Below are positions 2,971 through 49,098 of a DNA stretch of 64,000 nt, piece after piece. Within the stretch, counting starts at the first letter, position 1, and each line of letters opens with the position of its first letter. A model generated the notes under the pieces. That model saw only the letters and a list, made by a program, of their open reading frames with translations. It was not told the origin of the DNA and made no database searches. The position numbers and the translations under genes were made by a program. This DNA comes from Schistocephalus solidus (Eukaryota; Platyhelminthes; Cestoda; Diphyllobothriidea; Diphyllobothriidae): positions 62,001 to 126,000 of the forward strand of contig WEDG01001369.1 in NCBI GenBank assembly GCA_017591395.1, written 5' to 3'.

Positions 2971-3278
2971 ATGCCTTACCTACAGCAGCAGACGAGCTGC
3001 ACGGAGAAAAACGCAGCCGTCTCCTCTTCGTCGGTCAACATCTACAGAACTTGAGGATCAGCGGATGATTATCATGCTGCTGCAAACAGTAGATTGCCCG
3101 GTAAGGGTGACTGCATCATCATCGAGGGACTCTAGAGCCCCCCCGCTAACACCCCGAAGAAACGAATTTCCACCGACTTAGAGTAAATTCAGGAACTCAA
3201 CAACGAAATGCTGCAACCATCGGAGGAAATAACCATCCTTAAGGCCTTTCGTCTTGGAATTCATTAAAATGTCACCCC

Positions 3279-3642
3279 GATAGTTGGACCGTCGTAGTCC
3301 GACGATGTCCACCGTATGCTCCATAGAAGGGTGGAGCAGGGACGGTGACTTGCGCCTGAATTAGTTTTAAGTGATAGTAGCCTTTCGCTGCAGCTACCGC
3401 ACTCTCTCCTCCTCCCCCACCTGAGCCCGGTGTCAAGACAGAGTCAAGAAGACCGGAGGCGGGAGAGGACGCAGGTGGCTGGCGCGGCCAGGTCTCCTAA
3501 GTCCTAGTCGCCCCTAGGCGTGCAACCACAACTCCCATGTTCGGCATATGTTAGCGGAGCGCAACCCGAATAACGCATGCCGTGCCCTGATGTGGCCCCC
3601 GTGTTGGTCCAACGCATCTACCGCGAGGCCCGTTTAGGGGGG
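3279..3642 (-). mobile_element. SINE-like element, copy 1 (inserted in CR1 ORF1)
   Basis: 364-bp insertion flanked by the 6-bp direct repeat CACCCC (3273-3278 and 3643-3648). Removing it with one repeat rejoins the CR1 ORF1 frame exactly. Its sense strand is minus: a head beginning near 3640 with CGCGGTAGATGCGTTGGAC, and a tail identical in type to the RTE 3' UTR (CTTGACTCTGTCTTGACACC, ACTATCACTTAAAACTAATT, then the terminal GACTACGACGGTC). The same unit, 371 bp, occurs at 32944-33314. Confidence 0.75.
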
Positions 3643-3648
3643 CACCCC

Positions 3649-7959: not shown

Positions 7960-8907
7960 TAATAACGGAGGAACCTCGTTGCTGAAAAATACTGGGAAGG
8001 TATTCGTATGCAGTCTTCTCAACTCTCCCGTCACCCATCGGAAACATGAGCTCCACCCGGAAAGTCAGTGTGGTTTTCAACGACATCGTGGAACCACTGG
8101 AACGGTCTTCATCGCCTGCCAGCAGCAGAAGAAGTGCCGGACAATGCACACCATGCTCACATGGTGAATCACGATGGTATTATGAAAATTATGAAAGCAG
8201 TTTCGGTGACCAAGTGAGTGCATCAGAGATATATACTTGCTCCTCCCCCCCCCCCTCAGTCCCATGTTCTCTCTCTCATGATGATTAACGTTTAGCGTGA
8301 TAAGGGTTTTGAGATCTGCACCGTTAACAGATCCGAGGACCAAGTTCTCAATACCCGACGAATGCATGCATCCCACCGGGCATTAATAGTTTCTGTCCAC
8401 GACTTGCTCTTCTCGGAAAACTTTGCACTCAATGCCATGACAGAAGCCAGCATGCAAAAAAGCATGGACCTTTCCGACTCCGGTTGTGAAAACTTTGGAC
8501 TGACCATCAACGAGGATAAAACGGTGAGCATGAACCTACCAAAACCAGCGAAGGAGCTCACTACGTCCATTATCAACATAAATGGTACCAAACTCACCTC
8601 AGTAGAAAATTTCGACTACCTAGGCAGCATCATCTTAAACATCAAACGAAACACAGAAGAAATCTGTGGGATATCCAAAGCCAGCTGAGACCTTCGACCG
8701 GCTGCAAGCCTCCGTAAGCAACCGTCACGAAATTTCACTCAATAATAAAACTCAAAATGATCTGCAAACTACTCCGGCGGCCTGAGAAAACTTCACCCTG
8801 GATCGACCGGTTTGGAAAAAACAGCAGAAACTGAAACGCTAACTTATGATGTGGACAGGATTGCTACTGCTCAATTAAAAAGGATGCCTTGGAAATCTCA
8901 TGCACCT
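7960..8907 (+). pseudogene. RTE reverse transcriptase remnant (copy B)
   Basis: Reads TSLLKNTGKVF then LHPESQCGFQRHRGTTG (7975-8105), the standard RTE RT start. After a jump it continues at 8395 with VHDLLFSEN, where the catalytic FADD should stand, so both metal-binding aspartates are gone. It goes on through NFGLTIN, an equivalent of KTVVMHQP, and FDYLGS (to ~8640). The C-terminal RT region is deleted; only the stretch YDVDRIATAQLKRMPWKSH (8840-8900) remains before the insertion point. Confidence 0.75.
8897..8907 (+). repeat. Target-site duplication, left copy (CTCATGCACCT)
   Basis: 11-bp repeat identical to 10834-10844. It brackets the minus-strand RTE insertion 8908-10833. Confidence 0.85.
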
Positions 8908-9696
8908 GGCAGTTTGACCGTTGATTTCGACGAGGTCCACCGCATGCTCCACACCAGGTGGTGCAGGGACGGTGACCTGCGAGTGAATTAGTTTTAAGTG
9001 ATAGTAGCCTTGCACTGCAGCTACCGCACTCTCTCCTCCTCCCCCACCTGAGCCCGGTGTCAAGACAGAGTCAAGAAAACCGGAGATGGGAGAGGGCGCA
9101 GGTGGCTGGCGCGGCCGGAGCCGCCCCTGGGCGTGCCACCACACCTGGCTCGGATCCCACGGAGTGGGAGTGCCATAAAGGCCACATTAAGAAGGAGCCA
9201 TTGCAACCTGACGCTCAGTCCGCCAGTCAGCCACTCCACACAAAACACACATTGAGCTGACCACGTGGTCCGAGTTATCCCGTCAGTTGGCAACCTTCCA
9301 AGCCACGGCTTTTTAGCGCACTGTGATAGTTTTAAGCGCGTCAGATTGTTTATAGTGAGGAACATGCGCTGAGCTGTTGACCTCACTCTCTCCCCAACCC
9401 CCACCATCAGACACTGTCCGAGCCGGTCAGTTGATTGATGTGGGAGTGGGCGCATTGGCTGACGGATCGGCGTACCCATCTTCGCGCGCCACAGCACGAC
9501 CTGACCCCCATAACGCACACACCAGGATTCACAAACTCAGGGGATATTGAGGAGCCATCGCCGTCTGACTCCCAGTCCACTGGTCAGCCATGGTTTCTAG
9601 GAAACCGTGATATACTCTGGTAAATGGTGATTGTGAGGGTGTTGTCGATGTATTGGTGTAGGTAGTGTGTGCTGATGTAGCTTAGCCTCCGGTGGT
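8908..9696 (-). repeat. RTE 3' UTR (reference copy in this window)
   Basis: Non-coding tail following the zinc-finger stop. Fragments of it recur throughout the window in both orientations. Landmarks read on the plus strand: GACCGTTGATTTCGACGAGG at the 3' end, AGTTTTAAGTGATAGTAGCC, CGGTGTCAAGACAGAGTCAA, and CCATAAAGGCCACATTAAGA. Confidence 0.8.
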
Positions 9697-10833
9697 TTAC
9701 CGGAGGTTGTCGTGGAGTCGCATGTGTCCTAATAGGCCCATGCGGTGTGTAAATGTGCGGGAGCAGTGAGGGCAGTGAAGGCGGTCGCGTCGACTGCATG
9801 TTGGAGCCCCAGGCACTGGTTCACCAGCCTCCGTGCGATGGATTCGCAAGTGACCGATCAGGCCGATGCGTGAGTTGAAGTTGCGGGCGCAGTGTGGGCA
9901 GGAGAAATCTGTAGAGACTGGGGGGATGTCATTCATGGTAGTGGGGGTGGTAAAGGGCGCCAAAAATGGCAGGAGCGGAGGGTGTGCATGGTGTATCGGT
10001 GTGGTCGGCATTGTGGCGAATTCCACTGTCATGGATGCGCATGTGACCGAATAGGCCCATGCGATGAGTAAATGCGCGAGGACAGTGAGGGCAGTGGAGG
10101 TGACGATCTCTGCTGTGTGATGGTTCTCCAGGCACTGGCTCACCGGTCTCTGTACGATGTATTCGCAAGTGACCGACCAGGCCGATGCGTGAGGTGAATG
10201 TGCGGTCGCATTGAGTACAGCTTAGGAGAGATTCCCCTTCGCTGATGGTGGTGGTAGTGAAGGCAAAGGCGGTGATGGTTGCGGTGGTGGGGGTAACAGG
10301 CGATGAGTAGATGGATGTGGTCTCTATGATGGTGGGAGTAATGGAATTGATGCCAGGAGTGAGGGTGGGGGAGTCCGAAGGAGGGTTGGCAGAATTTGAC
10401 GTAGAAGATTGAATTGTCGGATTGTTGGTGCATTGCGTCTGAAGATGTCCAACCAGGCTGATTTCGTGCGCGTTAGATGCGTTGACAGTGCGGGCATGAC
10501 GGAAGGGCCTGGGCATCGCCGGTGTTGGTCTGGGGCGCTGGTGACTTACGTGCCACTCTTCTGGTCTTGGTGGCTGCGATCCGGTTGGCATCATTGATTG
10601 TTGAACCAGTCTTCACGTATCTTCTCAATGCCAGCCTATCCTGGGCGAGGTCCTCCCAGGTCGCCGGGTTGATTTGCAGTTGCTTCAGCAATTTCTTCAA
10701 AGTGTCCTTGTAGCGTAATTTTTGACCTCCCTGCCGGCGAGAACCTGTAGCGACGTCTCCGTAGAAAAGTCGTTTGGGTAGTCGCTCGTCATCCATTCTT
10801 ACCAGGTGGCCGCTCCATCGCAGTTGCACTTGC
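9697..10833 (-). pseudogene. RTE C-terminal region with five-finger C2H2 array
   Basis: Finger 1 (around 10500-10440) is split by a frameshift: SCPHCQR in one frame, then SLVGHLQTQC, a C2HC type. Fingers 2 and 3 are CTQCDRTFTSRIGLVGHLRIH (described by positions 10220-10158: CxxC...HxxxH) and CPHCPRAFTHRMG... (10105-10043). Fingers 4 and 5 are CPHCARNF...(9905-9843) and CPHCSRTF...(9773-9711). Fingers 2-3 and 4-5 are a duplicated two-finger module joined by the same linker HRTETGEPVPG / HRTEAGEPVPG. A second frameshift lies near 10010. The fingers are fused to the retrotransposon ORF2, so gene finders could mistake this for a host transcription factor. Confidence 0.8.
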
Positions 10834-10844
10834 CTCATGCACCT
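10834..10844 (+). repeat. Target-site duplication, right copy (CTCATGCACCT)
   Basis: Matches 8897-8907 exactly and marks the 5' end of the nested minus-strand RTE. Confidence 0.85.
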
Positions 10845-11604: not shown

Positions 11605-11990
11605 ATGGGGTCTCCGTCCCCATGGTGGTCAGCACGCATGCCTCACTATACACAATCTGACGCGCTTGAAGCTAGCGCGGTTCGCCAAGAGTCATTGCTT
11701 ACCAGCTGATGGGGTAGCTTGGTCTACCCTCAGAACGGAGAGTCAAGTTGCAGTGTTTGAACTTAACGTGGCCTCCATGGCACCCACCCCCCTCCCTTCT
11801 CGATTGGGAGTCAAACTGCCTCTTTTCTTGTTTTTGGGAAACCCAGGCGGGTGTGGCACGTGTATTTGGGTTGCTTAGTTTTGTGCTCTATCTTACCTCC
11901 AGAACCCTTGACTCTGTCTCGACCATGGGCTCCGGGGGATGAAGGAGGAGAAAGTTCGATAGATGCTGCGCAAGTCTACTAGCAATCAAA

Positions 11991-14900
11991 ACTTATTCGT
12001 TGGCATGTGTCCGTTTCTGTACCTTCATATGGTGTGGCACGCGGTAGACATCGATGGTAATGAGGGTCGAATTATCCTTTCTCTATAAAAGCTATTTAAA
12101 CACAATAAAATGCTCTGTTTACCATCGACGAGGGTGCAGAAGTTCTTTTTTAGATAAAGCTGTGACCTTGGATTTATGAACGTGTTGAACGTGCTTTTGC
12201 TCGCCATCTCAGAGGGGATACTTTCAGTTTAACCCATTTTATATAAATGTTTAAAACCAAAGGGGATTATTCCTACTGATAGCAGCAAATAGGCGAGTTC
12301 CAGAGAGCACTTCAGAATAAACAGATGAGATCGCTGGAACATTGAGTTTATCGTTCTAACGTTTCGAATGCTCGCTGGAATGCATCATCAGGGAGAGTCG
12401 TAGTTAGGAAGATGAAGGTGCAACGGTACAGTACTTATCGGGCGCATTTGCCATGTATATACATGCTTATCCAATGAGCAGACTTCGATTTCATCGCTGA
12501 GGCTCGTGCATGATGCGATGATCGCTCATTTTTCCGAGTCCTAGTCGATAATTATTGAACTTTCCTTACCAATTTCGATTATTTGTGTGGATGTTGCTCC
12601 GCAGTTTGTGTCCCGGTCCTTGGAATCATTGTTCGTCGCTTCCTCCCGCTTGGTTAATTATTCTGCCTAGGTAAATTCTTAACAGATAATATGGAGCCGG
12701 GAGGTCATTGCGCCTATAAATTGACTACTGACTGGAGAACCAATACTCTGGCAGGTTAAGACCCACGCAGTTGTCAGCCGTTGCGAGAATTTAAACCTCG
12801 TCAAACTTACAGGTATGTCCGGGTCCCGTCGAATGAACCGCGACCTGAGAGACAGCGTCTTTCCTAAAACTAGGAGCAACTACCGGGCCTCAGGTGCCTT
12901 AGAAAAGTTCGCGACATCGGAAGCGCCTAATATGGGTACAGAGATTGAAGATTTGGAAAGATAGATCTGAATACTTAAAACCTAACCAAGCTTTCACATC
13001 AAATCTACAAGTAGGATATGACCCTGCTGATCAGGCAAGTTTAACTACCGGAGATGGATAGTCCAGTTGTAATTTCACTAGCAGTGCGGCTGTGGAGGTT
13101 TGAGAACAAAACTTTAAAGTTAGACGGAATAACCGTCAAAGAAGTTATACCCGCCCTAAGGTAGATGGGAAGGCGGTTAGCGATGAGGACAGGTATTTGA
13201 AGATTTATTTAATTTCCAAGTGAAATTCTGAAATGCGTTCTCGATTAGCAAGTATTAATTAAATGGGTCTGCAGCATAATCCAACGATATATGACACATG
13301 CCAGGATACCGATTTTTAAAAGCAAGGCTTCTTGGCTGGTCACAAATATCACACTCAGTAAAAGCAAACTACTTAAGAAGTATGCATTTTTTCTGATAAA
13401 TGTCGTTGTCCTAAAATTTTGAAGTATTTTTGTAGAAAACCTATGTGCATACATTGTTTTTTTGTACTCATTTGGTAGCAAAGCACATGTTTTTCAGATT
13501 TTATACCCAAAAAGGGTATAGTTTATATATTTTTCAAATGTTTTCCAACTCTTGAAGAAATTTGAGTCCGATCTGTCTTCGAAATTTCATTTAGGGTTTT
13601 CAGTCTACAGGCTGTATGTTTTCCATGTAAGTACAAGCCTGTATGTATGTATGCCAGCTAGAAGATACCATATGGTGATCATGACATTTTGAAATGGATA
13701 TAGACTACGTTCTTTACGTCATTCGATACACATTGTAGTTCTAAATCGATCTTAGAATTAAAACTTTTTACAACCCCAAAATACCGTCGTTTTGAGTATA
13801 AAAAAAATTAGTAGACGTGTTTTTCTTCCAACAAAGTCCACAAAAGATTTTTTCTGTTCATAGGGTTTTCGAAAATCAATATAAACAGCATGCTACTTAT
13901 ACAGCCATCTTTTACTAACTTTGGTTTCACAGGCTGCCGAAAATATGTACGCAGGCTGGCATCCAGACGTGGGGGCAATATCTTGGGATTACGTCGTACA
14001 GTGTCAACATTTTCACATCCTCGACTACAGACTGCAAATGCTGCATTCGAAATTGCTTTTGAATACGGTGGTCAATTAAATCTGCTAGTTCAGTAGGTAC
14101 GAGCGGCTACTTGTTGAATTAAGATTCCCAAGATCCACTGCTGTTGAGCCCTCCACATAGAAGTATGAGTTATTAGTGGATGTGGTTACAGATGACAATA
14201 AATATGACTCATCCATTGGAATACGAGTGGTCACGAAGTCGGAGAAGACCTTCGAGGCTTTCATCGTGTCTTCTAACATTCGTGTTGGTAGGTACAGAAA
14301 GATGCCACTTATTCCAACGCTCCTTTTACCAGCTTGAGACGAAACATGAACTTACGGTCGAAGTCTCCTCTCTGTCTATTGCCAGAATTTAAGTAATGAA
14401 ACGTGTAGAGGGTGGTGTATCTAGCCCGAGATGTGCAGTGCCATAGCCCCAATCGACTACTCCCTGGGAAAACTGATCTACCAGCAGCCAAGAGCTTTCA
14501 TGACTTGGTACATGCTCAAAGGTGAATTAAAATGGACGAGTTTAACTGAGCTCCAGGGTTAGAATTCCATAAAGGCTCAAGGGGCAATTCGTATAACCTG
14601 CATTCTCACACCTTGCATTTTTCCTTTCCTGACCTTATCTTGAGGCTTACCGGACTTATTTGTTGTTTTGGGTTGCTTTCGTTAAATTCCCAATACGGGT
14701 TGTACTGCAGATGTGCTGATGGAGAACCAGAATAAAACTGGCTCGTAGCACGTGTTTCTAGGGCTGCGTTGAGTCTGCGTGAAGGATTAACGGCCGCCAC
14801 TGCACTTGAATCTATCAGAACGCGCAACTATTAGTGGTTTGAACGGCTGCTACTGACAAGTTAACTCCTACTTACTTTAGCCTCCGTGACATCTTTATGA

Positions 14901-15417: not shown

Positions 15418-18400
15418 CTAATCATCTCCAACCTCCTCCTCCTCCCGAGAAATTTCTTTACAAGCCTCTGGTTGTGTGGCAACACTGTCTTCACCGATGC
15501 TAGAAAGAATTGATGGGCTGAAGGTGGTCTTGTATTGTTGGATATCGATACTGTTGCCAGCATTTCTGTTTGACTGTTTTGACAGATAGAGTGGTACTAA
15601 ACAGCAGCATTGTGGATTTTTTGGATCGTACGGCGCGACTTGCCCGTTTCCCGCAGTGGAGTACACCATAAAACCAGCCAGTGATTGATTCGGATCAACT
15701 TCCCTGAAGGCCTTATCGATTGCCGCAGGTGGCAGCCCCGGAATAACATTTTGGATGCTTTGCTGCATATTGTTCTTAATTAGGAGATTATTCACAGATT
15801 CACCCGATCGTGTCTCTAGCAGCGCGGTACTGGCCTGTGAGGCTGTTCGGCTGTCCTGATCAATCGGCAAGAATTTGACATTCCGTGTTGGCGCGTTGCT
15901 AGGGCCCGCGGTTGGATGATGAGGATTGCCGCCACCGCCACCTTGCGGGCCACCGTCAGGAGGCGGCCCCTCAAATGGGGGCCGAATGAGTTCTGTCCTT
16001 GAGAATGAGCCCTGGAATACCATTGGCTGGTGCAGAACCGCAGTTTCAAATACGTATATTGTGTGACGAAGGTCCTCAGGGCGATAAACACAGGGCTGGA
16101 TGTAGCGTTTGCGGTCACAAAGCCGTGGTTCCGGGCTGTGATATACGTGTTCCGAGGCTGGCCCCTCTAACTTGTAGGCAATTCCATCTGCGGAGATAAC
16201 AGCAGGGTACAACTTCAAGGACACGTCCAGGGGACGGCCGACTTTGTGCACACCGAAGAGACGCAGCCATTTTCGGCGTTTCAGCCCACCGCTCTGGGGT
16301 CTGTCGCCATCCGTAGAGACCGCCCGTCGTCTGCAGCGCTTCTTCGGGCGTCTCCTCCGTGGACAGGTCTCCGCGCACGAGTTCGGCTCTGAAGAGTTTT
16401 TAAACATCCCGTGAAGAGGGCTGAAGTTATTCATCTGCCGCTGAAGTTCCCGTAGACTCCGCGGATCCTGTGATAGGCTTTGCGAACTAGCATAAAAGAG
16501 CCGGGGATTGAGATTACAACCATCTTCTGGATTGCAAGACCTGGCCCTTCGACCTGTGGTCCTGCCGCCTCCCGATGAAAGTGAGCTCAAGGGGTCTTTA
16601 GGATCAGCTGTTTGCCTAGCAGCAAAACCACTCATTATGTCACCGCGGTAACTTCTTCTCTGTTTCCTCATCTGCCTGGAAGGCTCCCGCAGGTGATTAG
16701 TATCAGTCCTGTTTTTCCAAAAAGGTGCGTTTGAATCAGGTGATTGGTTGACAGTGGTAGCCATGTAGACATCCTCACGTTTGTTTTTGGCAGCCATCGG
16801 TAGGAGCGGAATTTGACTAATCTGAGCCCGCTGCGCAATGACTTCTTTGGTCGGGAGCGACCTCTCAAGCGGGGGACCATTGGGTGCGTAGAAGACATCC
16901 CTGCCTTCCGTGTCCTCCAGTAGAGTTGACATATTAGAGACTTCATTCATAAACTGATCACTAACGCCCTCCTGGTGGGTTCCCCTTTGAACCATCGACT
17001 CGAATCCCAAGAGTCTCTTGGCTTGCGTATGCTGGCTCACCTCACTGGGCAGCTCATCGTAGGATTCGAGTCGAACAAGGACTGTTTGGTTTGCTCTACT
17101 GGTGTCGTTATCATCTGCCTCCCCAACTTCCTCCATATCGTCTTCGACACTGCAAATCTGACCATTGGGTCGATCAAAGCTTTGCAGCTGTCGTTGTCTT
17201 TGGGCTGCCCTGCGTCCCGCAGGTGCATTCGGCGACAGCCTACCATCTTCATCCTCGTATTCCGGACTGCTGGCATAGGAGGCGTGATACTGCAAATCCA
17301 AATCGTCCTGTCGAAATGTCTCAATGGCCTCCTGTTGAACGCCACCCTCACGCTGAACAACCCGATTGAGTGGGGGATGGTCTAACATCGCGTGCTCAGT
17401 CTGAATCGGGGGAGCTGTCGAAGTGTGGGCTAGCTGAGCACCCGGAAACCTCGGGACCTGCAGCTGTCGTGGAGATGTCCCTACATCTTCTGTTCCTCCT
17501 TGCACGGCGCTGCTGTCGTCTACAGAATTGTCAACAGTAATATTTACCCCCTCATCGATGTCGTGCTGTCGTTGACTGGCTTGGTGCAGTGGCTGATTCA
17601 GAGCGGCTCGCTGGGTGGGCACGCCAGAGGCCACTGTTCTGCCGGCCACTTGTGCATTCGGAAATTGGACCTGCCTCTGCGCCTGTATGCCATAATGGCC
17701 AGGTGGGTCCTGTGACATTCCGGTCCGACGAGTTTGTTGAGTATCTACTGCCCCACTGGTTCTGACACCCTGCCCAGTACCTGAGTCTGGCCCAGATACA
17801 GCATACTGTCGATAGTTCTGTTCGTCGTCACGTGATGACATACCCCGATCTAAGGGTTGATCAGCTTGCGCCAGCTCCTGACTCTGAGGAGCCACCGGGA
17901 GATCCTCTCTTTTCTGGTCTTTTACTCCTGGGGAGCCAAAAGCTGGGCGTTGGTTGGTTCCGAAGCCTCCTCGTTCAGGGGAGGCCTGATATTCTGATCC
18001 CACAGCCGGCCGAATAGCACCAGCAGTGGAGGCAAACTGGGCGGAAATTGGCGTTCCAGAGGCTGCAGACGGTCGACCCGTTCCAGCGGACCTCGCAGAA
18101 CGAGGCAAGTGTGAGGGTGTACCTCCAGTTGTTCTTTGTCCTTTTTTGGGATCCTGGGAATATTGGTTTTGTCCAGATGGCTGTTGACTTGGCGACCAGA
18201 GACCTGCGTTCTCGTAAACTGGTTCCGATCCGTCTTCTGTGTTTCTCTCAACGGCCTCATTTTCGAGGGAATTTTCTATTCGACCAACCTGTTTGAGTGT
18301 CTGGTTGGGTACGGCCGTTTGTACGGGCTGAGACATGGCTAGGGAGCGTCTGGCCCTCTGGGGTCGGGTGAAAACAATAACCTTTTGCTGGGATTCGCTG

Positions 18401-19978
18401 ACTGTCTGTTGACCCCCTGCTTTTGGTCCATCGTTCATTGCACTTAAAGGGCCCGGGAGCACATGAGGGGTGGGCACATTTTCCGGGAGGTGTGCGTTCT
18501 GAGCAGGGGGGTGGCTACCGCTGACGACAGTATGAGATTGAAAGGAAAGGGGACTAGCTCGACCTGCCTCTTCTTGAAGATGTAGGCTATTCGCGGCACC
18601 ATCCTGCCAGCTTCCCTCAACAGGAAGCCCCTGTTGCCGCGAAATGGAGACTGCCAGTTTCCTGCCGGCCTGCTGCAACCTCTGTATTAGCAGCTCCTGT
18701 TGTTGCTGTCGGGCTTCGGTTGGAAGGTCAACTGTGTTCTGCATCTCGCTTGCTGGCACGACCGAATGTAGGTACCTCGATGCTGAACTGTCGGTAAGGG
18801 TCGGCGCACTGGCTATGGAGGCAGTTTGCACCGCAGATCGGGACAGGCTAGCTTGCAAGCTATTCGTCATGATCTGGGGCTGAGAAACTATGCAAGCGAC
18901 CGACTTTTCCATCACAACGCCTTCTACTCCTTCCGTCTGAGTCTGGCTTACTGGGCGCTGTGGGCATTGGTCGGTTGACCTTGTGCGATGCCATTGAAGT
19001 CCCCGAGACCACAACAATCTGCGCAGGGTGCATAGGCGGTGGAGAAGCAGCACTGCATCGCGAAGGCGGATTCTGACTAGTCGTAGATGCACTCCTCCCA
19101 AATTTGCCGTTTCTATTGTACACGTTGCGAGTGGAAGAGTGTTTTGGAGTGTTCCTGTCTAAACCAGGTGAGTTGACACGCTGCTGATAACCGGATTGTA
19201 GCTCCTCTGTCTTGTGTGCGGACGTACAACCCTGCCCGTCACTGTATAGTCTTCGGGAGGAATTCAAAATACAGGTGTCTGTGTGCTCTCCGAGCCGTGG
19301 TGTTGTTCGTGGCGAGGGTTGATTGGGACCCTCGACTGGAATTATGTCCATTGGAGCTGCCGTCAGCTGTGTCGGTAGGTTCGGATGTGGGTGAGGCTCA
19401 TAGGGATCGATTAAATCTCGTTGAAACACAGCCAGTGGATCCGGTGGCCTCTGAAAGACGGGGTGAATGCCGGAAGAAGGAGCAGTAGCACGCCCACGAG
19501 TCACGGCAAGGGAATGGTAAACAGAAATTCTTTTACCATGCGACGTGGACGCAGTACATGCGGTCACGGTGCGTATTGTTGACCTTTTGTGGGGTCTGCC
19601 GTTGTTTCCTGTGGAACTGGGCGATCGTCCGCCCTCTTCATGATTTGACACGTTCATATTAACATGTTTGCAGTACTGCCCCTGATGGCAAATGATTTGG
19701 TCAGAGTCCAAAGAATGCAGAGACACGTCTGAGGAATTCAGCGTTGGATCGTCGTTGTCGATTTCGCTGATGGAACAAATTTCGTAGGGGAGTGGTTGCT
19801 GGCCGAGCGAATGCTGTATCTTCTTAGCACGGTCTTCCTTGTTTGATGCACAGCTGTTTCTGGCAGCCTCGGCTGGCCTGCGCAGACCATCGACGTCGCT
19901 GTTGCTTGTGAAACTGCACAGAGGCTTGGCATGTTTGATTTTACTGCCCCCAGGATTGCTTGAAAAGCCACTACCCAT
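15418..19978 (-). CDS. Predicted 1498-aa disordered protein with MGSG N-terminus (unknown function)
   Basis: Read as two exons, 19978-18952 and 18887-15418. The 64-nt intron between them (donor GTAAGC, acceptor GCATAG) joins two long overlapping ORFs of 372 and 1227 codons that otherwise lie in different frames. The start ATG has A at -3 and G at +4. MGSGFSS fits an N-myristoylation signal. The protein is low-complexity: Ser/Pro-rich residues 1-340, a Gln-rich segment ~402-421 (RQQQQELLIQRLQQ), long Gln/Ser/Pro stretches, a basic cluster ~1183-1197 (RRRRPKKRCRRR, NLS-like), then a region rich in aromatic and hydrophobic residues (~1209-1310) that may fold, a Gly/Pro-rich linker and an acidic C-terminus (SREEEEVGDD). 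I do not recognise the family. The length of the open frame and its lack of transposon motifs argue for a real host gene. Splicing is inferred, not shown. Confidence 0.75.
18888..18951 (-). other. Predicted 64-nt intron
   Basis: Donor CCCA|GTAAGC and acceptor TTGCATAG|TTTCTC on the minus strand. Phase 1 on both sides, so the two long ORFs join in frame. Other acceptor choices nearby (CTCAG, CCCAG) fit less strong donors. The size agrees with the short introns of lin-9 in this window. Confidence 0.6.
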
Positions 19979-19988: not shown

Positions 19989-20269
19989 GTTTACCTCTGC
20001 AGCGTTAAATTCTTGTTGTCGTATCGATTTCTGGTTTTTAATCAGGCACACAGCGCACGTGCGTTTCTCATGTGCCCTGCATACAGCGTGCTCGTGTGAC
20101 CTTCACCGTCTGGCCCAAGGGTCTGCGCCACAGATGCACTGGACGAAAACGGGAGTCAGTCCGGCTCTCAGCGTTTTATTGGAATTCGCTGGGGTCGCTT
20201 GAACAAATACCTACCTAGCCAAGGCAAGCCTTAGACGGAGACCACCTCACCGCGCCAGACACGGCACCC

Positions 20270-20510: not shown

Positions 20511-21600
20511 AACAAGCACCTATAAAACTCTTGGGACGAGCTCAATTGCACTCAGGTACAAGCAGATAATATGCGTGTTAAGGGTAGTCATGGAAAAAAT
20601 GCGCTCAAAGTCACTTCGAGGGTTAAATTCAGAATGAATTACAATGGGTTATATAGGGTCGTTTTTTTATTTTCAGAAATTGATTGTGTGCACACAGCGC
20701 TGATTGACGTTGGGTTATGTTTTCTCCTCCACTTGTTAGTAAATTGTGTTACTTTTCTTGTTTGCAGCCAAATACGGGACAGAGGCTTCGCCATTTATTT
20801 CCTTTTTATTACTCGGATGAACCGCATTGTCAGCAATTTTGATTGGTTGAGCGATTCCAATTCCGCGTAATCGGGCTTTGAGAAAGTGAATAGCAACAAT
20901 CAGCGTTAACTGTTTGAAACTCTTCGCTGTTTCACAGTCACTGCAAAATTTAACAACTACTGGCCTGTATCTTTTTTGCAAAGCAGTCCACTTCAAGTTG
21001 CTGGACATGACATGGGTTTACTAATGTGAACGATGCTCACTCGGAAGAGGAGAATGTTGCGCGCATGACAACTCATCACAGTAATATGGCCTTTTGCATC
21101 TGATTAAACATTATGACCAGTACCAGTCTTGTGAGGGAGGAAAGAGGTGACGAATTGCGTGTGAACGTGCCTGTAGGAGGTAAGGTACTCACAACGTCAT
21201 CTTCACTACACCTACGTTCAACAATTTCCGATTACAAGAGATAAGGCTGTACCGAGTTACTGATTGGGGATTTTATCCCGCTAACGTATGCGACACAGGT
21301 GCTGGATCGTACCCTAAAGATGGAAACAGGGTTCACGCAAACAGCTCCGAAAATAACTCCAAAAATGCCGTATTAGGAAATATGTTGGACTCTCGGCTTC
21401 TCGGGTGCCTGAATGACTGACTGAGGGAGGGATCGCACGGCAGTCTCCCCCATCCCTTTCTCCTGGCGAAGGGCTGCTCCCAGTGTGGATTTTGAACGCC
21501 AGGGTTCCATTTGTGTTGTCTCCTACATTGCTGTCTGGGTATAGGGGGTAGTAGTTCGGCGTAACACCACACAGAGAGCATTTGATCACTCCGTTTGTCT
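20511..21600. other. Non-coding stretch
   Basis: No recognisable gene. The 99-codon frame at 20571-20870 is rich in hydrophobic residues but has no known domain or support. Confidence 0.4.
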
Positions 21601-21844
21601 TGTACAGGTGGTGAATGCTCCGGTGGCTGACTCTAACTGGTACCCAACTCTCACTTGTGGCTCAACGTAGCTGGGCTCTTCTTAGCGGCCACAACCCGGG
21701 CAACCATAACGACCGGCGGGCTAAACCAGCAGAGGGTCTCCGGTGCTGTGTGTGCTTCCAAACCCCGTGTGTATGACTCCCAAACCTCCCCCCCCTACCC
21801 CTCCTCTCAAAAGTCCTAGGGTGGTGGCGACAGCAACACCGTAG

Positions 21845-24700
21845 GTGGCCAGGCTAACTTGGGTCGCTCTCCCACTAACAAAAACCGTGGTCCATAGTGG
21901 AGTTCGGCAGCCGGCTGGGCTGTCCAAGCAGCCCTATTTAGGGACAAAACTGCTTGCCTCCTCGCGGAGCAAGGGGCTAGAAAGGGTGCCTAAACAAATG
22001 CTGGGTCTCACGCCTTCTGCAGCCGGCCGTGGCTCGCAAATCGCAAAATACGCGGTCGTTAAACTCAAACAAACAACAATACTCGCATCCCCACCCCCCG
22101 CGCCATACACTCCGTGCTGCTCGGTGAGTCCGCTCACACTAGCAGCCTCGAATGTTCGTTCTTTTTTAGACAATCCGAGGAGCAACCGGCCAGAACGGAT
22201 GACGGCACTAGTCCCTTGGGAACTGCCACGCTATAAGGTGAACATTGCTGCTCTCAGCGAAACCTGATTCTCTGAGCAGGGTTAGCTGGAGGAGGTGGGT
22301 GCCGACCACACCTTCTTCTGGAGAGGCTGACCAAGGGCAGAGTGACGCGGCGCCGGTGTCACCTTTGCCATCCGGAACGGCATCGTGGGACGTCTGCCCT
22401 GTTTGCCGCGGGGATCAAGGATCGCCTGATGAGCCTCCGTCTGCCTCTTCGGGGAGACACGTTTGCCACCATCATCAGCTCCTACGCTCCCCTGATGACA
22501 AGCTCTGATGCGGCGAAGGACAATTTCTAGGAGGACCTGTACGCCCTGCTGGTGACTGTGCCGAAGGCGCGTAAGTTTAATGTCCTTGGTGACTTCAACG
22601 CTCACGTGGGGTCAGACCACGCTGTCTGACAGGGAGTGCTGAGTCACCACGGTCTCGGTATCGGTAACGAAAGCGGCCTCCTTCTTCTGCGAACCTTTGC
22701 GGAACACCGTCTTCTGCTGACGAACACCTTTTTCTGCTTTCCGACGCGGGAGAAGATCACGTGGATACACCCTCGGTCGCGGCGCTGGCAGCGGCTGTCA
22801 TCCAGTTCACTGCCCTCGAATTCCTCAGACGCGCATGCCGTCAACACCAGGTCTCGTATGACGACAATGAAGACAACATCAGCAACCTAATCGTGGAGCA
22901 AAACCGAATACACAAAGCCTACATGGATCTCCAAACTGACACCACCAAAACAGCCTTCTTCAGATGCCGCCGCCTTGTACAGCAACGGCTGTAGGAGATG
23001 CAGGACGCCTGGATGATCCGAAAGGCGGAGGAAATCTGGGGGTATGCGGACCGCAATGAAATGAAAATCTTTTCAAGGCCATCTACGGCCTCTGCACCAA
23101 AGAGACCGCACCGCTGCTCAGCTCTGATGGCACAACACTGCTGATAGAGAAATCTCAAATTCTGTAGCGCTGGACTGAGCACTTCAGAAGTGTCCTTGGT
23201 TGCTCATAAGCCATCTCTGGTGCTTCCATTGACCGGCTGCCTCAAATGGACACGAACAATGACCTGGAGCTGCCGCCTTCCCTACCAGAAACCATCCGGG
23301 CCATGCAACAGATTTCCATCGCGAAAGCACTGGGATATGACGCGATCCCACCGGAAGTCTACAAGCACGGCTGGCCCCGGCTGATGGCAGAACTCAAAAC
23401 ACTCTTCCAGGAGATTTGACGCCAAGGAAGAGTTCCTCAAAGACGCGAACATCGTCCATCTCTACAAGCGGAAGGAGAACTGACAATTCTGTTATAATCA
23501 CAGAGGCATCTCGTTGCTCAACAGCACCGGAAGATCTTCACCCGTATACTTCTCAATCGTCTGAACGGTCACCTAGAGCAAGGCCTGCTCCCGGAAAGCC
23601 AATGTGGCTTCCGACGACACCGCGGAACAGCCGACATGATCTTCGCCACCCACCAGTTACAAGAGAAGTGCCAGGAGATGCGAACCCACCTCTAAACTAC
23701 CTTCGTGGATCTGAATTGCAACGGACTTCTGAAAGTCATGCAGAATTTCGGCTGTCCTGAGCGGTTCACGCACATGGTGCGTCAGCTTCATGACGGGATG
23801 ATGGCGCGTGTCACTGATAACGGGACGGTATCCGAAGCATTCGCAGTGGGCTGCGTACTGGCCCCGACCCTCTTCAGTCTCATGTTCTCCGATATGCTGA
23901 TGGACGCCTACCGTGGTGAGTGCCCTGGGATACGCATCGCCTACAGAACTGATGGGCACCTTTTCAACAGTCGACGTTTGCAGGCCCCGACGTGCGTGTC
24001 TATGACTGCAGTTCATGACTTGCTCTTCGCAGACGACTGCACCCTTAACACCGTGACGGAGGAGGACATGGAAAGGAGCATGAACCTCTTCGCCGCAGGC
24101 TGTGCCAATTTTGGATTAACAATTAATACAGCCAAAACGGTGGTCATGCACCAACCGCCACGCAGCGTGGAATACTGTGCTCCTCGAATCAATGTCAACG
24201 GTGCTCAACTCCAAAACGTAGAAACCTTCGCTTATCTAGGAAGCACGATGTCGCGCTTCGATGACGAGGTTGCCCAACGGATCTCCACAGCTAGTCAGGC
24301 CTTCAGCCGGCTGCAGGCCTCCGTGTGGAATCGCCATGGTATTCACCTGAACACCAAACTGAAGCTGTGCAAGGCCGTCGTCTTGACGACACTCCATAAC
24401 GGAGCGGAGACCTAGACTGTATACTCGAAACAAGCTAGGAATCTGAATCACTTCTATCTCAGCTGCCTCCGCAGAATCCTGAAGCTGAGATGGCAAGACA
24501 GGATCCCAGACACGGAAGTCCTGGAGCGGACCGGGATCCTCAGCATCCACGCCATGCTGAGGCAAGTGCAGCTTCGATGGAGCGGCCACCTGGTGAAAAT
24601 GGACGACGAGGGACTCCCAAAACAAATTTTCTACGGAGAGGTCACTGCGGGTGTTCGCCGACAGGGAGGTCAAAAACGACGCTACACAGACTCGGACGTT
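21845..24700 (+). pseudogene. RTE ORF2: endonuclease and reverse transcriptase, inactivated
   Basis: The endonuclease begins at SNVRSF (~22147), with NIAALSET (22240), an in-frame stop at 22264, and [10 protein letters not shown] near 22590. A deletion near 22795 removes the endonuclease C-terminus. The RT shows LPESQCGFRRHRGT (23590-23630) and FGCPERFTHMVRQLHDGMMARV (23745-23815). SEAFAVGCVLAP (23838) lacks the usual six residues before GC, so the KQG motif B is gone. The catalytic box LLFADDC is intact (24022-24042). NFGLTIN, FAYLGS and a C-terminal [19 protein letters not shown] also remain. Stops at 24415, 22530 and elsewhere. Not functional. Confidence 0.85.
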
Positions 24701-24702
24701 GA

Positions 24703-25205
24703 GCCGATTGTGGTGTGGTGGAGAGAGTGAGGTCGACGGCTCAGCGCATTTCCCTCTATAAACAATCTGACGAGCTTGAAACTATCAAGGTACGCTAAAA
24801 GCCATGACTTGGAAGGTGCCAACTGAAGGGATAACTTGGACCGCGTGATCAGCCCGGTTTGTGTTTTGTGTGGAGTGGTTGACTGGTGGACTGAAAGCCA
24901 GGCTGCAATGGCTCCTTCTTGATGTGGCCTTTATGGAACTTCCAATCAGTGGGATCTGATCCAGGTGTGGTGTTGCGCCCAGGGGCGGCTCCGACCGCGC
25001 CTGCCACCTGTGCCCTCTCCCAGTTCCGGTCTTCCTGACTCTTTCATGACACCGGGCTGAGTTGGGGGAGGAGAAGAGAGTGCGGTAGCCGCAGCGCAAG
25101 GCTACTATCACTTAAAACTAATCCACTGGCAATTTACCGTCCCTGCACCACCCTTCTGTGGAGCATACGGTGAACAGCGTCAGACTACGACGGTTATACT
25201 GTCAA
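24703..25205 (+). repeat. RTE 3' UTR of copy E
   Basis: Sense-orientation match to the tail at 9696-8908: TGACTGGTGGACTGAAAGCC, TTCTTGATGTGGCCTTTATGG, CTTCCTGACTCTTTCATGACACC, ACTATCACTTAAAACTAATCC, and the terminal GACTACGACGG. Confidence 0.75.
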
Positions 25206-26399
25206 ACATTGCTGTCTGGTTGCTCGCGTTGCAATTAGCGCCGGGGTGGTGGGGAGTTGGCAAGTTACCAAGCGGCCCTCCAGCCATCATGGGAAACCTC
25301 ACTGAGAGGCATGTGGTGCCAAAACTACGGTGACAATGACAAGCAACCGTTCGTCACTCGCGAACGACGATTTCCACACTGTGCCCCCCGGAATGGTGGC
25401 GCAGGTCGACTAGTTGGCCATCCGTTATTTTTCACTGAGGCCGATTTATTCAGCCTCAATTGCAAGGTTGTCTTTTTCACTCACCGGGCTCACTTGGCAA
25501 GATGGTTTCACGAGGACTGGAGGTGTGCTTGGACGCGGTGGGTGATAGAGCTTAAAAGCCAGTCTACGCATTCCACCCATGAACTGGTTCCCAGTATGTA
25601 TCAGCATGTGTGCATAAATATGTTTCCCACCTGCTTGAGACGTGTGTTTGGGTTTTGGTATGGTTGGCTGGTGACGGCTCCTATGCCAGAAATGGCCATT
25701 TCAGTCCCTCTTGTCTTTGTTGGTAATTTCATCATGCCTATATCACCAGCCGCTCTGCGGCTGCTGGCGGGGCTCTAGAGTGAGCCCCAAGATACAATGG
25801 GATGAGTGTGGCCCGTAACCGATCGGTGAGCACCCATATAACATCACGGAAAGTTTCGTTTTGATCTTACCTTTGACCAGACATCCTCCAAAGCTATGAA
25901 GGGTGGACCTGATATTTCAAATCAAATTTAAGTACCTACCATTAAGCGGTTGACCCTGTGTGTTATCAACCGCTGTACATAGATTCAGAAAACAATTTTC
26001 TCTATTAAAATGGTATTTATATAATTTAAGTAGCCCATTTATTCTGGAGAAAAGTTCCGAATGGTTTTAACTTAGTCTTCGGCGATCAGACCTAATTGCA
26101 GACTGGAATGCAGAATGCCGTTTTGCCATAAAGCCCTCAGTCGAAGACTGGGGTCAACTATGGTACGGATGCTGAAGGCTTCCATTACATTATTTTGTGC
26201 CACTTTACTTCCAATTATTGCATACTTGTTCCTATGCCTTTGCCTACCGGTTATCTAGCATTTAGTCTTAAAGTAAGTGCTTACGTTTGTATCTATTCGT
26301 AAGTCAGCGAATCCAAAGTAATATCACAGCATTCTGCTGGTTGCTTTCCTGGGCGTATGGTAGGTATAGGCCTCCGAATTAGCAAGTGCTCCCCTTAAC
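25206..26399. other. Non-coding repeat-derived stretch
   Basis: A 173-codon open frame (25257-25778) has no recognised domain. Its 3' part (~25684-25736) resembles bases 868-920, which suggests a dispersed repeat, not a gene. Nothing else is identified. Confidence 0.4.
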
Positions 26400-26712
26400 A
26401 GGCCATGCCGGATTTGCTCTGGACCAACGCGGGAGATAGATTAGGGGACGGCAGCCTTTATAAGAAGTGCGTACACATAGCGAATTTCACACATGAGAGA
26501 GGGATTGGTTTCACGCTTGGGTACGGGTTCACGCTATGCGGGTCATATGTGCCCATTACCACCTCATGTCTTCTTGTCTTGGTCATGACACTGGGCTCAT
26601 ATGCGAATGGAAGAGATTTTAGTAGATGCTGGGTAAGTCAATGGTCCTGCGCTCACCCTCTGCGACACAAATGGTGAACCTCGTTGGAAACGATGGTCAA
26701 ACTATTGGATTG
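26400..26712 (+). repeat. SINE-like element, decayed copy
   Basis: The head resembles the SINE-like units (CTGGACCAACGCGGGAGATAG, GACGGCAGCC) and the tail the RTE 3' end (CTTGTCTTGGTCATGACACTGGGCTCA, GGTGAACCTCGTTGGAAACGATGGTCAAACT). Strongly diverged. Confidence 0.5.
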
Positions 26713-26948: not shown

Positions 26949-27002
26949 GCTGGACTGTAGATACGCTGGACTGTAGATACGCTGGACTGTAGATACGCTG
27001 GA
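26949..27002. repeat. 16-bp tandem repeat, 3.4 copies
   Basis: Three perfect copies of GCTGGACTGTAGATAC (26949-26964, 26965-26980, 26981-26996) plus GCTGGA. Confidence 0.95.
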
Positions 27003-27559
27003 CCAGGACTGGGAGCCATACTGTCTCAGGAAAGGCGTTAATTAGGCTGTTCGGAGTCCGTACGGGCCCGTAACTACTACCATGCCTAAAATATGGCGTG
27101 GTAACAATTCTACACGTGCACCTCATGCCGCATCAATCACTCCACCCAGCACCAGATCGTTAACAGGTCCGGATGGTCTATTGAGGCAGCTTAGGTTCTT
27201 AAGGAGGTCCTATCTGCTACGACCTTCAGACCTGGTTCCGTATGATAAGAGAAGCATAAGGAAGCCAGTTTGAAGGATAGTGTGTTCTATACAGAACCAT
27301 CGGATGAGAGGTTGAAAACAGTTGGTTGCTGGACGAGGGCACATCCGAGCCGCTAGGGCGGCGTCCCCATTGTGGGACCGTGCGGAGTCATCACGGGGCA
27401 TCCAGCGTGGTCATGTGCGCATTAGCCTTGAAGATGACTGACCAGCTTAGACAGCCGGGATTGGCGAGAACCAGATAGACACTGGTGCACTTGTTCATTT
27501 AGTGGCGAGACGTTCGACTTTGCATTGTGTGCACGTAGTCGTGTCCCTACATGTCGACT

Positions 27560-32107: not shown

Positions 32108-33365
32108 TGACAGTTCGACCGTCGATTTCGACGAGGTCCACCGTATGCTCCATACCAGGTGGTTCAGGGACGGCGACTTGCGCGTGAATTAGTTTAAGTG
32201 ATATTAGCCTTGCGCTGCAACTTCCGCACTCTCTCCTCCCCCACCTGAGCCCGGTGTCAAGGCAGAGTCAGGAAGACCGGAGATGGGAAAGGGTGCAGGT
32301 GGCTGGCACGGCCGGAGCCACCCCTGGGTGTACCACCACACCTGACTCAGATCCCACGGAGTGGGAGTGCCATAAAGGCCACATTAAGAAGGAGCCATTG
32401 CAGCCTGACTCTCAGTCCACCAGTCAGCCACTCCACACAAAACACATTGGGCTGACCACGCGGTCCGAGTTGTCCCGTCAGTTGGTAACCGTCCAAGCCA
32501 CGGCTTTTAGCGCACCGTGATAGTTTCAAGTGCATCAGATTATTTATAGTGAGGAAAATGCGCTGAGCTGTTGACCTCACTCCCTCCCCCACCCCCACAG
32601 TCAGACCACCATCCGAGCCAGTCAATTGTCTGAGGTGGGAGTGGGTGCATTGGCTGACAGGTCGGCGTACCCGTCTTCGCGCGCCACAGCACGACCTGAC
32701 CACCATTACGCACACACCAGAATTTAATTACTCAGTGGGATATGGAGGAGCCATCGCCGTCTGACTCCCAGTCCACTGGTCAGCCACTCTACACACACAG
32801 CACATACACTGGGCCAACGGCGTGGTCTGTTGTAAGCGTAAGATTGGCAGCCTTCCAAGCCACAGTTTCTAGGAAACCGTGATTTTATCAGGTACATTAT
32901 GATGATTGTGAGGGTGTTGTCTATGTATTAGTGCAGATGGTGCGGTTGTGCCCGCTGAACGGGCCACGTGGTAGATGCGTTGGACCAACACGGGGGCCAC
33001 ATTAGGGCACGGCAGGCGTTATTAGGGTTGTACTCCCATAACAAATGCCGAAGATGGAGGTGTGGGGGCACGCCTAGGGGCGGCTTGGTCTTAGGGGACC
33101 CAGCCGCACAAGCCACCTGCGCCCTCTCCCGCCTCCGGTCTTCTTGACTCTGTCTTGACACCGGGCTCAGGTGGGGGAGTAGGAGAGAGTGCGGTAGATG
33201 CAGCGCAAGTCTACTATCACTTTAAACTAAATCACGCGCAAGTCACCGTCCCTGCTCCACTTTCCCATGGAGCATACGGTGGACATCGTCGGACTACGAC
33301 GGTCGAACTCTCGTAGATGGTGCGCGCTGATGTGGCTTAGCCGCAGGTTGTCGTGGAGGCGCATG
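32108..33365 (-). mobile_element. 5'-truncated RTE 3' end, split by a SINE-like insertion
   Basis: Plus-strand bases 32108-32943 match the RTE 3' UTR at 8908-9680 in minus orientation. After the insertion at 32944-33314 the element resumes at 33324 and ends with the last codons of finger 5 (MRLHDNLR, read on the minus strand near 33340-33362). Confidence 0.75.
32944..33314 (+). mobile_element. SINE-like element, copy 2 (inserted in RTE 3' UTR)
   Basis: 371 bp flanked by the 9-bp direct repeat AGATGGTGC (32935-32943 and 33315-33323). The head reads CCGCTGAACGGGCCACGTGG then TAGATGCGTTGGACCAACAC; the tail (~33080-33314) is the RTE 3' end in sense orientation (CTTGACTCTGTCTTGACACC ... GGACTACGACGGTCGAACT). 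A weak Pol III A-box (TGGTAGATGCG) and B-box-like GGTTGTACTCC lie 55-60 bp apart. No poly(A) tail. Same architecture as 3279-3642. Confidence 0.8.
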
Positions 33366-33389
33366 AGTACAAACACCGCTTTGACACTA

Positions 33390-38950: not shown

Positions 38951-39730
38951 TGAACGTAAGCATGAGCAACTTGTGACTTCAAAGCCTTCTATTTACATTT
39001 CTATATGCCAGTAAGAAGACCTCGTAGTGGATATGAACCATGTTTTGTGCGCGTTAATAAATGAGCAGATACAATGCTATATAAATGGATATGTTGCAGT
39101 CTGATAATATCTCATAGTTAGACCTTTTTTTTAAACCAAAAGATGCCCCTTCTTAAAGTTTACCTTTTGGAGTACAAGAGGAATATTTATGCACATCTTT
39201 CCTAGAGTTAATATGGACATCGAAAATCAATAGGAAAATCCAAACTACTTAAATAGTCATTGAAGTGTAGTTTTGAAGGTGATTGGGAAGAAAGGTATGC
39301 ACATCCATACCCGGCATCAGATATAAAAGCAGAAAAAGGTAGAACGTGTACGGAGGGGATGGAAGTGCAGTATTTATAGAGCTGCATTGCCAATGTCATC
39401 TGAGGGCGTAGCACGCCTGTGGCGCGCTAGTATTATTATTATTCTTATTATTATTTATCATCTGCCTAAGCTCTTCTCCAATCAGCCTGATTCAGTCGAA
39501 CCATGTGCGGATAAGCAGGAGTCCCGTGCCCGGTGACATTGCGTGCGATATGAAGGGACGTACGCCATTTCCTGTAGGACTCAAAGGTGAAGTGCGTCCT
39601 GAGTCAACACTTATGGATTGGGATGAGTCTGGCCTGTCCGAAGCTCTACTCCTTTTCACAGGGTTTGCTTTGCGGTTTTGTCGCTAAAACGGACATGCAG
39701 CAGATGCTTTGGGCTAGATCAGAACACAAC
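38951..39730. other. Non-coding stretch
   Basis: No recognised gene or RNA. Confidence 0.4.
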
Positions 39731-39734
39731 AGGC

Positions 39735-40010
39735 AGTAGTGGGGATGCATACACACGACGAAGGCCACACATGGGATGTGGGTGTGTGTGCGTGGTTCAT
39801 GCCCAGGCGCAGACTCACGCCGCGTCAACCACCTGCGCCCGGACTTCTGGACTCTGTCTTGACACCGAGCTCAGGTGGGCGAGGGAAGGGAGCGTGGTAG
39901 GCCCCACACAAGCCTACTTCCAATGTAACCTAATTCACGCGCAATTCACCGTCGCTGCACCAACCTTGCCATGAGGCACATGGGGAACCTAGTCAGAATC
40001 GCCGATCGAA
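39735..40010 (+). repeat. SINE/RTE 3' tail, diverged
   Basis: GACTCTGTCTTGACACCGAGCTCAGG-type tail near 39850, AAGCCTACTTCCAATGTAACC, ATTCACGCGCAATTCACCGT, then CATGGGGAACCTAGTC. Sense orientation of the RTE 3' end. Confidence 0.6.
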
Positions 40011-40171
40011 TCACCGGTGGTGGTGGCCTCGAGTGGCAGATCCTGAGTCCCTGGTCTCTGTTGGCAGCAGAGTTATTTTGACGGTAGCTGTGGTATTTGC
40101 ATCAACAGTCGGAAATCGGAAATGTCAGAAGTGAAACAAGTGATGTAAATACTAAAATTCCGTAGCAACCG

Positions 40172-40515
40172 ACGACTGTTTGACCGTCGCAGTCCAGCGA
40201 TATCCACCGTAGGCTCCACGGCAGGGCGGTGACTGGCGCTGGTTTATAGTGAAATTATACTTTCGCTGCATCTACTTCACTCTCTGCTCCGATCCCCCAT
40301 CTGGGCCCGGTGTCAAGAAAACCTGAAGAAGGTAAGGGCGCGGGCACACACATTGTGGTCCACCAAAAACAAGAACAAAACAACAAGGAGGGAGGGCTAA
40401 TCGGATCCCAACTGAGTGGGAGTGTCATAAAGGCCATATTAAGGAGTCATTGCAGCCTGACTCTCAGTCCGGCAGTCAGTCACTCCGCACAAACACACAC
40501 TAGGCTAACATATCC
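40172..40515 (-). repeat. RTE 3' UTR fragment
   Basis: Starts TTTGACCGTCGCAGTCCAGC and contains GGCCCGGTGTCAAGAAAACC, GGATCCCAACTGAGTGGG, GTCATAAAGGCCATATTAAGG and CAGCCTGACTCTCAGTCC, in minus orientation as at 8908-9250. Confidence 0.7.
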
Positions 40516-48439: not shown

Positions 48440-48645
48440 GTTTATTGCACAAGTAACCTTCGCTGACGGGCGTTTCGCTAACGGACTTGTGTAGCCTCTA
48501 CCACACTCTCTGTTCCCCCGCACTCCTTGGCCGGGTATTACGATGGAGTCAAGAAGACCGGAGGCGAGAGCAAGCACGGGTGACTGGCGTGGCGTAAGCC
48601 GGCATCTAGGTATGCCGGTGCACCCTCCCCCCTGTGTGCCTGAAG
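48440..48645 (-). repeat. RTE/SINE 3' tail fragment
   Basis: ACGATGGAGTCAAGAAGACC, GGAGGCGAGAGCA and GTGACTGGCGTGGCG follow the same order as the RTE 3' UTR in minus orientation. Confidence 0.55.
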
Positions 48646-49098
48646 ATACAAGGACCCACCCAATGACCTTAAGAATGAACGCTTTTGTCGGCTGTTTTGT
48701 AAAACTCTATATGTAACTAGCAACAAGCTGCGGAAAATACAGGCTGCCCAAACGGCCTTTTTTTCCCAGGTAGATCGTAATAGTCGGGGCGCATGCTCAA
48801 CTTTAGAGTTATAGTTAACACCGAGACCACCGCACAGAAACCCTACTTCCATAAAATATAATTACTGATTGCATCGATTTTAAGTTCAGGTTTCAGTTTG
48901 TCCCAGTAACACTATTGTCGATTCCCTACTACACGTTGATCGACTTGGCGTGCCCAAGACACGTGCAGAGGCGATTACTCAACATTCGGGTGCAAAATCT
49001 GACTGCCAAGGAAAACGAATTCGAATGGATATTAAGTCCAGGAAGATAGTGGCACGTATGGACTTGGAAGGCACTAGCATGGGGGAAAAGGGGTCTAC
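48646..49098 (-). other. Downstream of the last visible lin-9 exon
   Basis: No match to the conserved LIN-9 C-terminal end was found here. It should hold intron or 3' flank. Confidence 0.3.

Follow-up and report, generated by a model that had tools for sequence, protein, structure and literature searches.

SINEs in many cases share their 3′ end with a partner LINE. A flatworm repeat of this general kind is Sm-alpha of Schistosoma mansoni, which is SINE-like, of similar length to the element described here and contains both a hammerhead ribozyme and Pol III boxes; the four tapeworm copies that we examined, on the other hand, match no ribozyme family. The non-LTR elements HeT-A, TART and TAHRE of Drosophila form telomeric arrays that, like the tapeworm arrays, run head to tail in the same orientation, but they attach to chromosome ends, and the tapeworm arrays differ in having (TG)n spacers.

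In squamates the Sauria SINE carries the 3′ end of an RTE-clade LINE, Bov-B, and has target-site duplications (TSDs), as does the tapeworm element, and its microsatellite-like 3′ repeats may influence the site of nicking and priming (PMC13295347). Unlike the tapeworm element it has (ACCTTT)n and (CAA)n tails and a Tn-TA target signature, and arrays are not discussed under the word “tandem”, whose single occurrence is in the reference list of that paper (PMC13295347). For the Squam SINEs and the Dip SINE, the accessible text of a second paper describes full-length SINEs in tandem, as found here, and tandem repeats derived from SINEs; nearly half of the copies of the jerboa Dip SINE lie in multimers, of up to eight (PMC10702118). 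The squamate satellites in that text come from portions of SINEs, whereas in the tapeworm whole units are separated by (TG)n, and compared with its SINE multimers the tapeworm arrays reach 37 units and are interleaved with the partner LINE. Amongst cestodes, the part available to us of a third paper reports RTE-BovB as abundant in Spirometra, D. latus and S. solidus, and 36,816 SINE annotations in Sparganum proliferum, with no description there of a single family (PMC8166898). In the accessible parts of the mainly open-access cestode, flatworm and SINE literature we found no published description of the present family.

The window, a 64,000-nucleotide stretch of a contig of Schistocephalus solidus, was analysed together with the genome (603.7 Mb in 8,019 contigs). 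We consider it likely that the element is a SINE-like non-autonomous retroposon with its own head and an RTE tail, copied by the RTE machinery and forming arrays by way of TG-rich landing sites.

A head joined to the tail of a LINE

The element has a head of ~114 nt, which is joined to the final ~250 nt of an RTE-type LINE. A preliminary description of the window had named two copies, here units A and B (Table 1), which are 89% identical over 364 bp. The alignment agrees with it that both have the same unique head and an RTE 3′ tail, while correcting the lengths that it gave: the head is ~114 rather than 140 nt and the common tail ~240–257 rather than ~230 nt. A stretch of ~14 nt in A and B is absent from the RTE and from the older copies. 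Three LINE copies in the window have 3′ ends to which the last ~250 nt of A and B correspond, and their upstream sequences are unlike the head. The window has four full-length units and not two, as C and D were found with a profile made from A and B alone, the heads by themselves scoring 44.1 bits for D (E 9e-13) and 23.7 bits for C (E 2e-6). With a head profile from all four copies these score 73–107 bits, by construction, and 20 first-order Markov imitations of the window reach at best 7.2 bits. The two head remnants listed in Table 1 were found with this four-copy profile. A 16-bp tandem repeat of 3.4 copies at 26949–27003 overlaps one head remnant and resembles the A-box-like stretch, of which it is perhaps a local expansion.

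Table 1. Units, remnants and partner LINE copies in the window
Feature	Position	Strand	Remarks
Unit A, full-length SINE-like, young subfamily	32944..33314	+	371 bp; 3.8% from consensus
Unit A head, unique, ~114 nt	32944..33057	+	absent from RTE copies (alignment, profile)
Unit A, A-box-like stretch	32969..32979	+	weak
Unit A, B-box-like stretch	33026..33036	+	weak
Unit A tail, common to RTE 3′ end	33058..33314	+	
Unit A left TSD	32935..32943	.	AGATGGTGC
Unit A right TSD	33315..33323	.	AGATGGTGC
Unit B, full-length SINE-like element	3279..3642	-	
Unit B left TSD	3273..3278	.	CACCCC
Unit B right TSD	3643..3648	.	CACCCC
Unit C, older full-length copy	39674..40017	+	32% from consensus; nhmmer A+B profile 131 bits
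Unit D, older full-length copy	26385..26708	+	35% from consensus; nhmmer A+B profile 92 bits
Probable head remnant	26987..27050	+	adjoins 16-bp tandem repeat; 11.0 bits (imitation best 7.2)
Possible head remnant	20121..20159	+	12.0 bits (imitation best 7.2)
RTE/SINE tail fragment	11883..12077	+	
RTE/SINE tail fragment	40172..40343	-	
RTE/SINE tail fragment	48483..48657	-	
RTE copy 1, 3′ part	8907..10837	-	C2H2 zinc fingers (ORF 9929-10612)
RTE copy 2, 5′ end to 3′ tail	21538..25204	+	RVT_1 in 23696-24415
RTE copy 3, 3′ part	32108..33368	-	split by antisense unit A

The duplications of 9 bp around A and of CACCCC around B lie at the borders first proposed, that of A extending to 10 bp with the following G included. 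When the flanks of A are joined they align across the junction to the RTE copy at ~9586–9727, where the target occurs once, so that the pre-insertion site is a real empty site, and the proposal that A splits an RTE 3′ UTR is borne out. The joined flanks of B, which had been described as splitting CR1 ORF1, give a single frame, putatively that of CR1 ORF1, with two stops (...LKAFRLGIH*NVTPQT*LRPLKVILGSNEQAKLILSRRF...).

The partner LINE has a detectable RVT_1 domain and, upstream of the reverse transcriptase, a putative APE-type endonuclease read by eye in the translations. Amongst the best 120 of 1,130 protein matches, its reverse transcriptase is closest to proteins of S. solidus and Spirometra. 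From the literature and the reading of motifs, rather than from a tree, it would appear to be RTE-type. Its 5′ end starts GGGGTGTAGGGG, reads toward the coding region and is present in seven array flanks. Downstream of the reverse transcriptase region lie zinc fingers (Pfam zf-C2H2, 9929–10612, minus strand), which are unusual for an RTE-type element; RTE copy 2 is without the stretch that holds them in copy 1. The RTE 3′ UTR also has a second, diverged partial copy of the tail upstream of its end (9336–9466, 32531–32661 and 24713–24774), these being weak matches of 3–18 bits. Elsewhere in the window an ORF of 1,246 residues (15418–19158, minus strand) is 100% identical over 95% to the uncharacterised S. 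solidus protein A0A0X3PXK0 and 70% identical in Spirometra, with no Pfam domain at E 0.001.

Internal deletion is the origin of many non-autonomous LINE derivatives, and the head might on this account be the RTE 5′ end joined to the RTE 3′ end. The head profile, however, finds no match in the first ~1 kb of the RTE 5′ end even at E 10. The preliminary description had held that a head always joined to RTE coding sequence would count against a SINE, and this is not what is seen: the head continues into the SINE body in all 30 head loci that were cut out, the window itself being one. RTE coding sequence does occur near four of them (L031, L039, L041 and L045), in neighbouring RTE copies outside the unit. 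Since the RTE 5′ end is unrelated and all 30 heads lead into the SINE body, the element is not a deleted RTE; such an origin is refuted for this RTE family, and we regard it as extremely improbable.

The class of the element was examined from several sides. The Pol III boxes of the head had been called weak; the best box pair in A is equalled by 23 of 500 shuffles and that of the four-copy consensus by 78 of 500, and the pairs in B, C and D are at chance level (308, 297 and 473 of 500, respectively). No tRNA, 5S or 7SL family in Rfam matches any of the four copies at E values of up to 10, nor did ARAGORN yield a usable result. Covariation in a 3′ stem-loop is not above that of shuffles, 145 of 500 of which reach its score. 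Six-frame translations of A and B have stops throughout, the longest open stretch being ~92 codons, antisense in A, and a protein search with the translated SINE found one S. solidus protein in which only tail letters match. Pattern scans of viral and genome contigs gave 0 matches. The terminal inverted repeats expected of a MITE or DNA transposon are absent from A and B, each of which has only an internal inverted repeat of 12 nt.

The element is under 700 bp, non-coding, dispersed and multicopy, has a 3′ end in common with its partner LINE and makes TSDs, all of which are attributes of a SINE. We call it SINE-like rather than a SINE in the strict sense in view of the Rfam and box-pair results on its head. 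The earlier reading of a non-autonomous partner of the zinc-finger RTE is supported in part: the element has its own head, the RTE 3′ tail and TSDs, is dispersed, and is plausibly a passenger of that RTE.

Genome copies and their arrays

A search with unit A gave 48 near-full-length matches on many contigs, at 93–100% identity with the window's own included, when the best 40 of 3,610 first-look candidates were scored; the genome copies are 93–96% identical to A. With unit B the best 40 of 4,139 first-look candidates were scored, and with the head the best 40 of 866, of which 30 loci were cut out. The old-copy query found best relatives at 75–76% amongst the best 40 of 4,061 first-look candidates. 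These first-look numbers are of candidates and not of verified copies, and the sampled copies are the best-scoring ones rather than a random set. The majority consensus from 118 distinct units is 367 nt long; most young-type units lie 0–9% from it, a few 9–15% and the old ones 24–35%. The copies are many and their borders are fixed and conserved; the TSD score described below is passed at 17 of 41 insertions or arrays.

In this one assembly young copies are often arranged head to tail in a common orientation, in arrays mixed with RTE copies. The two largest have 11 and 37 units and the others 2–5, each in one orientation, with spacers of 0–57 bp that are mostly TG repeats. The 37-mer occupies 13.4 kb (C1470:128000-143000; L010, L059, L011) and contains recurrent variants; its 3′ flank matches the RTE 5′ UTR. 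A neighbouring unit or RTE tail is close by at 20 of the 40 places scored with A and 8 of the 40 scored with B, and within 70 bp at 11 of the 30 loci cut out with the head. Arrays often start with an RTE 3′ end (L004, L007, L017, L018, L020, L031, L045 and L049), and seven loci run into an RTE 5′ end (L004, L007, L013, L014, L031, L039 and L045). At nine other loci, which belong to the old subfamily, the copies mostly stand alone. Short flanking pieces were considered as truncated units and rejected, as the fetched regions show whole neighbouring units; likewise, the shared 3′ flank is not another repeat but the RTE 5′ end.

The genome is highly repetitive and all arrays come from one assembly, from which it might be argued that repeat copies have been collapsed or falsely joined. 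We find this very improbable: the units of an array differ from one another, the two ends of the 11-unit array carry 11-bp TSDs that match each other, and the contigs extend well beyond the arrays (380 kb for that of the 11-unit array and 333 kb for that of the 37-mer). The arrays, their (TG)n context and the repeated use of the same landing sites are new beyond the first observation.

Borders and landing sites

The unit runs from (GT)TGTGCCCC to ...AACTGTCG, and in arrays a TG run usually comes after it. Using a TSD score with a pass at 8 or above after 3 points had been subtracted for mismatch, 17 of 41 head-led insertions or arrays passed, compared with 26 of 1,640 mismatched flank pairs. 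Groups set aside from this set were 38 without a 5′ head (tail fragments and RTE-led arrays), 4 lying at the edge of a locus and 4 that duplicated a place. Amongst the 17 that passed, three are whole arrays, with 11 units bracketed by TATGGAATACG, 3 by GTGTGTCCAAC and 2 by TTAGTGGAGAG.

Nine of the 41 5′ borders come directly after (TG)3 or longer, for which the background is 52 and 47 of 63,994 positions on the two strands of the window and 14 of 29,640 in locus ends. In the 6 bp left of the TSDs, 71 of 102 letters are T or G, against 51% in nearby flanks (tail probability 1e-4). A TG tail is missing from many single insertions, and there are targets, such as TCCTTC at L022, that are not TG-rich. 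The same spot in the RTE 3′ UTR has been hit, antisense, by three insertions (A, L035 and L036), while L030 lies at another RTE 3′-UTR site and L021 adjoins RTE 5′-UTR sequence.

The RTE itself was looked at in the same way. Fourteen of the 20 RTE 5′ ends fetched lie directly after a SINE- or RTE-type tail and TG run, in a set whose query began with TG letters, so that copies preceded by TG rank higher (in 27 of the 40 the match starts at query position 1–3); the best 40 of 2,905 first-look candidates had been scored and 20 of the 40 fetched. By eye, nine of the 14 upstream tails are SINE-type, four RTE-type and one mixed (L079). Of the remaining six ends one lies after (AT)n(TG)n and the other five have different flanks, amongst them L083 in RTE 3′-UTR sequence and L088 with an old tail ~40 bp away.

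How the arrays may have grown

An array could arise as a satellite, one inserted copy being multiplied through replication slippage or unequal crossing-over, in which case units should be nearest to their array neighbours. In a test on units less than 12% from the consensus, the closest relative of 28 out of 73 lies in the same array, which is above all of 200 shuffles (mean 7.4, maximum 19). Most of this signal is that of the 37-mer, with its recurrent variants, where the closest relative is inside for 20 of the 27 scored units, as against only 8 of 46 elsewhere. RTE ends and truncated RTEs also occur within arrays, and the variation in spacer length, from 0 to 57 bp, speaks against this origin as well. 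Units are thus nearest their array neighbours in the longest array and not in most of the others; a satellite origin is disfavoured as a general cause and seems to us quite unlikely.

A different possibility is that several units are added in one insertion by end-to-end template jumping of the reverse transcriptase, with base pairing between the 5′ TGTG of the cDNA and the UG tail of the RNA that is copied next. The 5′ TGTG suits such a jump, and a single TSD surrounds 11 units in one array and 3 in another. Private substitutions do not differ significantly between units in 8 of the 14 arrays tested (L012, L014, L016, L019, L026, L031, L032 and L049), and these fit a single event as well. Against this, they are unequal at p<0.05, uncorrected, in the other six: L015 (6e-6), L017 (9e-4), L013 (3e-3), L018 (5e-3), the 37-mer (2e-8) and L009, an array of 4.2 kb, where the value of 0.015 would not survive correction. 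In L053, L054 and L020 young units are paired with more diverged ones. The oldest unit is not in every case the 3′-most, and the most divergent unit does not lie consistently at one end.

L053 (C4326) is informative in this respect. A unit 4.4% from the consensus adjoins one at 26%, whose best other match in the genome is 76%, and TAGTGGAGAG occurs three times, before, between and after the two. A young and an old unit with the target sequence in these three places point to stepwise growth, as target sequence between units is expected from a second insertion. As a separate observation, the unit at 26% keeps an exact 11-bp TSD, which would not be expected at such a divergence; its source gene may itself have been diverged. 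Taken as the account of array formation, one-shot concatemers seem rather unlikely.

Most of the growth resembles repeated insertion, since outside the 37-mer no more than 8 of 46 units have their closest relative at home, and in several arrays the units are unequal in age. We conclude that the main route was one insertion after another at borders rich in TG; template jumping may have contributed to some arrays, and local duplication to the longest.

Such growth could proceed as follows. The reverse transcriptase of the LINE would bind the SINE-like RNA at the tail that the two elements have in common and copy it by target-primed reverse transcription. Priming would prefer TG-rich sites, because a primer ending in CA can pair with the UG-rich 3′ end. 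As TGTG stands at the start of the element and (TG)n comes after it in arrays, each insertion would create or preserve a landing site, at which further SINE and RTE copies could insert in the same orientation, the outcome being mixed arrays of the form RTE-(TG)n-SINE-(TG)n-SINE-(TG)n-RTE. In some cases neighbouring units may have been added together, in a single event of template jumping, and the longest array has also undergone local duplication.

In the HeT-A arrangement the tail of an upstream copy serves as promoter for the next. By analogy, a SINE or RTE tail directly before the RTE start GGGGTGTAGGGG might act as a promoter, making the mixed arrays functional and not a by-product, an idea that we put forward as speculation and think improbable. 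If it were true, the SINE would repay its helper with landing sites and promoters, and membership of an array would mark active RTE copies.

SINEs with the tail of a LINE are ordinary; here a LINE and SINE pair landing on its own borders would lead to long mixed arrays. The family offers a natural case in which to study target choice by the microsatellite-like 3′ tails of RTE-type elements and the passage of repeats from an interspersed to a tandem state, and it makes the repeat content of a model tapeworm more legible.
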